From the NCBI RefSeq assembly GCF_017094465.1, contig NZ_CP064791.1, forward strand, positions 1,736,001-1,800,000: a DNA stretch of 64,000 bases, given 5' to 3'. The notes under the pieces are model-generated. The model was not told the origin of the DNA. It searched no databases and saw nothing but the letters and a program-made list of their open reading frames with translations. The stretch comes from Halapricum desulfuricans (GTDB lineage: Archaea > Halobacteriota > Halobacteria > Halobacteriales > Haloarculaceae). A program made the position numbers and the translations under genes. This document shows, piece after piece, positions 26,229 through 26,500 of the stretch. How positions within the stretch are numbered: position 1 is the stretch's first letter; each line of letters begins with the position of its first letter.

Positions 26229-26439
26229 GCGTTCCTCGTAGGGTTCGAATCGGCTGACGATTACAGTCGCTCGCGGGTTTGCGAGCGACAGAAATGCGTG
26301 GGACCGGATTCGAACCGGACCGAGAAATGCTCGCTCCCGATGGTCGCTGCGCGTTCCTCGTTGGGTTCGAATCCTCATCACGATTTTGTCACTCACGGTT
26401 TGTTCGTGACAAAAATGCGTGGGACCGGATTCGAACCGG
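26229..26439 (-). repeat. Two tandem units carrying the 3' end of tRNA-Leu and a hairpin
   Basis: Two units with a 121-122 base period. Each holds a block GCGTTCCTCGT-x-GGGTTCGAAT (26229-26250 and 26351-26372), an ACGATT, a hairpin (GTCGCTCGC/GCGAGCGAC at 26266-26289; weaker GTCAC/GTGAC at 26388-26410) and the 3' end of tRNA-Leu(GAG). That end is a 27-base identical segment at 26292-26318 and 26413-26439, the second copy being the tRNA gene itself. On the minus strand each tRNA end is followed by a T-rich stretch and the hairpin, so a tRNA transcript would run through both units. This looks like tandem duplication of the tRNA 3' end plus its terminator. Confidence 0.75.
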
Positions 26440-26500
26440 CGGACCCCTACGGGACAGCGCCCTCAACGCTGCGCCGTTGGCCTGGCTTGGCTACCCACGC
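26416..26500 (-). tRNA. tRNA-Leu (anticodon GAG)
   Basis: A class II tRNA of 85 bases on the minus strand. Acceptor arms GCGTGGG and CCCACGC pair over seven bases with discriminator A. The anticodon stem CAGCG/CGCTG encloses TTGAGGG, giving anticodon GAG. A long variable arm follows (CCCGTAGGGG), then the T arm CCGG-TTCGAAT-CCGG. No intron and no encoded CCA. AAATACA about 26 bases upstream (26523-26529) is a likely TATA box. The T-rich run right after the 3' end leads into a hairpin that probably ends transcription. Confidence 0.95.

Follow-up and report, generated by a model that had tools for sequence, protein, structure and literature searches.

The hairpin repeats found behind tRNA genes of Halapricum desulfuricans, each built in part from the tail of its own tRNA, look like an apparently undescribed family and not a one-off duplication; we found no description of such a hairpin-repeat family in the open-licence PMC literature. 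The window, a stretch of 64,000 nucleotides (contig NZ_CP064791.1, positions 1,736,001 to 1,800,000, forward strand), contains one such repeat behind tRNA-Leu(GAG), which a preliminary description had compared with the rtT repeats of E. coli and, alternatively, with the trace of an integrating element. That observation is correct but understated, and its one-off readings give way to a class-wide family. In our best explanation, which we consider about evenly balanced between true and false, the units are short hairpin cassettes which, folded as single strands, undergo recombination at the T loop of a tRNA and leave its end restored.

The host gene, tRNA-Leu(GAG), lies on the minus strand, as do all of the unit features below. 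It spans 26415–26501 according to ARAGORN and 26416–26500 according to the Rfam tRNA model; the gene is intact, and we place it at 26416–26501, with the discriminator N73 at 26416 and G53 at 26436. The copy of 27 bases of its 3′ end, reported to lie 121 bases away, is borne out: 26292–26318 and 26413–26439 agree at 27/27 bases and form the exact core of a 43-nt direct repeat (26276–26318 and 26397–26439; 88% identity, spacing 121 bp in both cases). A second shared block, also described previously, was recovered at 26223–26251 and 26345–26373 (29 nt, 90%, spacing 122) and contains GCGTTCCTCGT. The T-rich stretch and hairpin said to follow each copy on the transcribed strand are likewise present, and both hairpins are strong (z = –3.8 and –5.9; 0/200 shuffles each). 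A chance origin of the repeat was rejected, given that 27 exact bases within 800 bases are not expected and that the repeat recurs genome-wide.

Unit 1 (26415–26295), the sole complete unit behind this gene in the window, begins with a T-rich start and hairpin 1 (26384–26414; z = –3.8), a T5 tract lying directly 3′ of the tRNA. Next comes the T arm in inverted orientation (26365–26375; 10/11 bases), an element of both units that the preliminary description overlooked, then the apex, a mismatched hairpin reaching from the inverted to the direct T-arm copy and delimited by unit parsing and folding (26316–26364), and finally a 21-nt direct copy of tRNA positions G53 to N73, located by repeat comparison and unit parsing (26295–26315). 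In the predicted fold, the inverted and direct copies pair into an 11-bp stem with the mismatched hairpin on top, and this large hairpin (26305–26376) reaches –36.4 kcal/mol as RNA (z = –5.7 against shuffles) and a z of –5.9 as DNA. Unit 2 comprises hairpin 1 (26266–26289; z = –5.9) and, from the sequence and the second repeat block, an inverted T-arm copy (26242–26252) and the beginning of an apex (26226–26241); it is truncated near 26226 and has no direct copy. A search against all Rfam families at E ≤1 returned, besides the tRNA, only two weak matches to microRNAs, both well short of the gathering score. Thr(TGT) at 1021–1094, the other tRNA of the window, carries no unit; its counterpart in G001 (L103) is followed by two near-identical tandem units.

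The search for the same unit behind other tRNA genes, which the preliminary description had proposed, found it behind 21 of the 45 in the same genome. BLAST with the repeat matched other tRNA loci, and when the last 22 nt of each tRNA was compared with its own downstream 450 nt (45 tRNAs by Rfam; 44 distinct tRNAs with downstream DNA by ARAGORN), near-exact copies appeared for about half. We parsed 28 units behind 21 tRNAs, with as many as three in a row at tRNA-Ser(TGA) and tRNA-His; decayed units also occur. A covariance model, R1, gave 30 matches in this genome, 27 of them no more than 500 nt behind a tRNA and on its strand (expected, 0.4%), and these touch 21/45 tRNAs. The other three are a match 1.7 kb from tRNA-Lys(CTT), a weak match 2.5 kb from a tRNA, and a reverse-strand echo of a counted unit. 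At tRNA-Lys(CTT) itself, the tRNA-end copies of an array of ~1.8 kb (L154, contig C1 of G000 at about 1628400–1630480; counterpart L113 in G001) bracket the end of one gene and another gene that we take, from its protein sequence, to be rhodopsin-like.

Those bracketing copies speak for the idea that an integrating element left the repeat, using tRNA-Leu(GAG) as its attachment site. The duplicated segment also starts at the T loop and makes the tRNA end whole again, some sites are filled and others empty (see below), and PMC8371274 lists the T stem-loop among three regions of tRNA genes that integrases are known to use; attachment sites of tyrosine recombinases, as treated there, resemble the repeat in that the tRNA 3′ segment is duplicated, the gene restored and the T stem-loop targeted. 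However, an inserted element of ordinary size is absent here, since only ~100 bp of hairpins, with neither gene nor integrase, separates the copies, and the inverted arm of the haloarchaeal units is tRNA-specific as well. Because like units stand behind 21/45 tRNA genes, the repeat is not a relic of a single integration, and with matches in 189/194 genomes in addition, this already disfavoured origin strikes us as extremely improbable.

The units share a common order, read from the tRNA: a T-rich hairpin 1 starting immediately 3′ of N73, a spacer, G53 to about C63 in reverse complement, the apex, which is a mismatched hairpin with internal loops, and the direct copy of G53–N73, with a usual cassette length of about 100–140 bp. 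Since the 5′ strand of the T stem is as a rule uncopied, the direct copy is bounded on its left by the start of the T loop, and since the cassette ends in the neighbouring tRNA's own G53–N73, the tRNA gene is intact and a direct repeat of 21–22 bp is left. The direct copies are tRNA-specific, and the inverted arms mostly so, as in AGAATCGAAC for His, GGAATTGAA for Gly and GGACTCGG for Asn. That the inverted arm follows the copy independently of the tRNA, a proposal first drawn from tRNA-Leu(GAG) of G002, was discarded as a generalisation, since the arm fits the tRNA in most of the differing cases.

A set of 94 units used below was found by match to tRNA, so specificity could be tested without bias only on the 39 loci in named genomes that were chosen by an exact 30-nt apex pattern alone. 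Thirty-four of these follow a tRNA of the same strand at a distance of up to 700 nt, and 27 of the 34 carry the neighbouring tRNA's own acceptor part (at least 9/10 bases), compared to 1.4% in comparisons with other tRNAs. In the remaining five, T-arm copies are present but ARAGORN calls no tRNA; four of the five are close to the edge of a contig or locus. Separately, eleven copies read GTTCACAATCC and not GTTCAAATCC, the same one-base T-loop insertion behind different tRNAs; across four genomes, they belong to units behind tRNA-Arg(TCG), Pro(TGG), Thr(TGT), Val(TAC), Phe and Met.

The family extends across the Halobacteria. R1 matched 36/39 genomes, including this one, at E ≤0.01, and 189/194 Halobacteria genomes at E ≤0.001 with no more than 26 candidates scored in each. 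Across the phylum, at E ≤1e-5, it matched 18/19 Halobacteria versus 0/101 other genomes, an absence that is tentative because the R1 model is GC-rich. The 39 exact 30-nt apex loci come from named GTDB records, e.g. of Haloarcula, Haloferax, Halorussus, Natronococcus and Halobacterium, and the identical apex stands behind a wide range of tRNAs and in numerous genera. If tRNA ends simply underwent passive tandem duplication and gene conversion, with template switching keeping the arms alike and with neither mobility nor function, this would yield near-identical tandem units such as those of tRNA-Thr(TGT) and tRNA-Leu(TAA) in G001. One apex shared behind many tRNAs and genera, and a family confined to Halobacteria among the phylum genomes searched, are less easily obtained in this way, and we consider such an origin unlikely.

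Another version of the apex, allowing up to 3 mismatches, was met 34 times, in 11/25 relatives; taken as loci (n = 30), 18 lie behind a tRNA and 12 do not, the latter mostly in G025 and G029 within other GC-rich hairpins. Away from tRNAs, the apex hairpin was seen in other GC-rich intergenic repeats (L175, L181–L183, L188, L193–L194, L196–L197 and L199–L201) and at the plasmid loci L170–L172. Because it also occurs off tRNAs, at the three plasmid loci alike, the apex is part of a wider haloarchaeal hairpin motif, and it is the tRNA-specific arms that define the cassette family. Three non-tRNA apex loci had no match in Rfam. Among plasmids there were five partial matches: a tRNA-Val(CAC) gene with a unit in Natronorubrum bangense (L168), a tRNA-like stretch with a unit in Natrinema thermotolerans in which ARAGORN calls no tRNA (L169), and three in which the apex hairpin sits within repeats of another kind. 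As for other carriers, two patterns gave 0 matches in the viral sequences of IMG/VR, and no match was found among phages.

Pairing within the units was assessed on alignment A1, which holds 24 of 25 units of this genome (tRNA-Ala(GGC) left out); L051 unit 2 and L054 unit 1, with weak inverted arms, and L084 had been set aside beforehand from the 28 parsed units. As the units are related and not independent, the covariation, strand-bias and loop statistics are indicative: (i) the T stem in the 24 units is paired at 89.6% versus 80.8% in shuffles, with a covariation score of 0.319 versus 0.161 (0/500 shuffles as high); (ii) stability favours the tRNA-sense strand in 72/94 units for hairpin 1 and in 64/94 for hairpin 2; and (iii) for the loop classes CC and [CT]CG, 28 + 57 units fall on the diagonal and 7 + 2 off it (94 units; Fisher 3.6e-15). 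These 94 were counted out of 96 units by requiring at least 7/10 inverted-arm bases, a doubtful tRNA-Arg(CCT) unit of G000 included; the samples comprise 30 loci for 39 matches in G001 and 15 loci for 40 matches in G006. Across four genomes, 88 distinct T stems contain 46 G·T mismatches versus 11 A·C, with 20 of the 46 at one position beside the internal loop. While the apex is constant, the internal-loop halves occur in recurrent pairs, CCT with ..CCG or ..TCG, AGA with GCGT, GAGG with CGTA or GAGTA, and CAGG mostly with CCGTG; the loop table for named loci covers 38 of the 39, one starting at a contig edge. A constrained folded single strand, whether RNA or DNA, would give such pairing of loop halves, to which shared descent of modules also contributes. 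A kink-turn reading of the internal loop was dropped, as it fits, by eye, one loop class only.

A folded RNA is the basis of the main rival of the cassette reading, a co-transcribed RNA like rtT. Behind E. coli tyrT, the rtT repeats form tandem units that each carry that tRNA's 3′ end, and they are the closest of the known systems in layout; the likeness noted in the preliminary description holds to this extent, although the window repeat has no match to the Rfam RtT family. The haloarchaeal units differ further in standing behind many tRNAs and in having an inverted T-arm copy and two hairpins each. Under this rival, terminator read-through would produce a trailer in which the anti-T-arm strand is held by the T-arm copy, a putative decoy, sponge or processing signal, with repeats generated by unequal crossing-over and kept by selection on the RNA fold. 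The greater stability of the tRNA-sense strand, the covariation of T stem and loop halves, and the position of matches on the tRNA strand all agree with it. So might the recurrence of the acceptor end CCCACGCA within 200 nt of tRNA-Leu(GAG) at 19/29 loci; most of these copies form the 3′ arm of a small hairpin with a T-rich stretch after it, and such mimics of the tRNA end could point to a role as RNA. These small hairpins are a further, more compact type of tRNA-end copy, seen mainly where units are absent (L016–L040); in L023 and L024 the first CCCACGCA copy belongs to a full unit. Read-through is made less plausible by the T5 tract after tRNA-Leu(GAG), as T stretches terminate transcription in Haloferax volcanii, T5C at 95%, according to PMC7237163. 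The variation of occupied tRNAs among congeners, the decayed units, and the lack of a clear difference in T-run length between tRNAs with and without units in this genome also weigh against a trailer RNA, which we treat as possible but doubtful.

Comparison of relatives revealed differences in both occupancy and array length. The tRNA-Arg(TCT) site is empty in this genome and filled in G001, where the flank CTTCAAAAC, found after the tRNA here, follows its copy; tRNA-Arg(CCG), likewise empty here, carries a unit in G002, and the flanks of the two can still be aligned. At tRNA-Leu(GAG), the locus for which such a comparison had been suggested, G001 has two full units and G002 one, which resembles the second of G001, and tRNA-Leu(TAA) is followed by three units versus one between genomes with a similar end flank. 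Occupied tRNAs and array lengths thus vary among congeners. Since excision between the 21–22 bp copies would be precise, filled and empty pairs are silent on direction. At L016 (G037), by eye, a hairpin of this kind interrupts the T loop of a degenerate second tRNA-Leu body behind the intact gene.

For the cassette reading, we propose that a cassette would enter by recombination at the T loop, at G53/T54, with the tRNA-sense strand folded, much like the folded attC sites in integrons; arrays could then lengthen or shorten via ordinary recombination between tRNA-end copies, and pairing would be conserved because the fold is the recombination substrate. Mobility of the cassettes, a folded DNA substrate and an enzyme are what we infer here. 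The reading is favoured because (i) matches adjoin the 3′ side of tRNAs (27/30 versus 0.4% expected), (ii) copies fit the neighbouring tRNA (27/34 versus 1.4%), (iii) the same 30-nt apex recurs behind many tRNAs in many genera, (iv) filled and empty sites and differing array lengths exist, and (v) the T stem covaries, the sense strand is favoured and loop halves covary; that the T stem-loop is a known integrase region, as given in PMC8371274, lends further support. Against it, array changes are accounted for by tandem recombination of copies already present, with no need of mobility, and empty sites by precise loss; viruses and phages lack units in the patterns searched, the apex lies off tRNAs at 12/30 loci, and a tRNA-specific inverted arm is left unexplained by simple insertion with target duplication.

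Integron attC sites are imperfect hairpins with AAC...GTT arms, unpaired spacers and a variable tip, arranged in tandem arrays and with one strand favoured. The haloarchaeal fold and layout appear similar, in a comparison by description with the attC consensus, although the arms follow the tRNA T arm and not attC boxes, and most units have neither an integrase nor cassette genes. A bolder version, in which a class-wide integron-like system with a putative recombinase joins hairpin cassettes at T loops (G53/T54), rebuilds tRNA ends and forms arrays, some with cargo such as the rhodopsin-like gene of the tRNA-Lys(CTT) array, seems to us rather improbable. Haloarchaeal MITEs, PATEs and small mobile repeats (the last 80–110 bp) are likewise short, transposase-free and palindrome-containing, and the part of PMC3119063 that describes them includes no tRNA-end copies of the present kind. 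Unlike these, the tRNA-end units sit behind tRNAs with tRNA-specific direct and inverted copies and a 21–22 bp duplication; as regards the terminal inverted repeats that MITEs and small mobile repeats have in common at unconnected sites, the inverted arm is tRNA-specific and the apex alone recurs off tRNAs.

In practical terms, a repeated tRNA end in a haloarchaeon does not by itself show that a virus or island has integrated. Structured repeats built from the tRNA follow about half of this genome's tRNA genes, and some of those in almost all haloarchaeal genomes sampled. These may turn out to be tRNA-targeting mobile elements, the smallest of their kind, or else a class of RNAs from tRNA trailers; either outcome would be new, and the question is testable in tractable haloarchaeal genera such as Haloferax.
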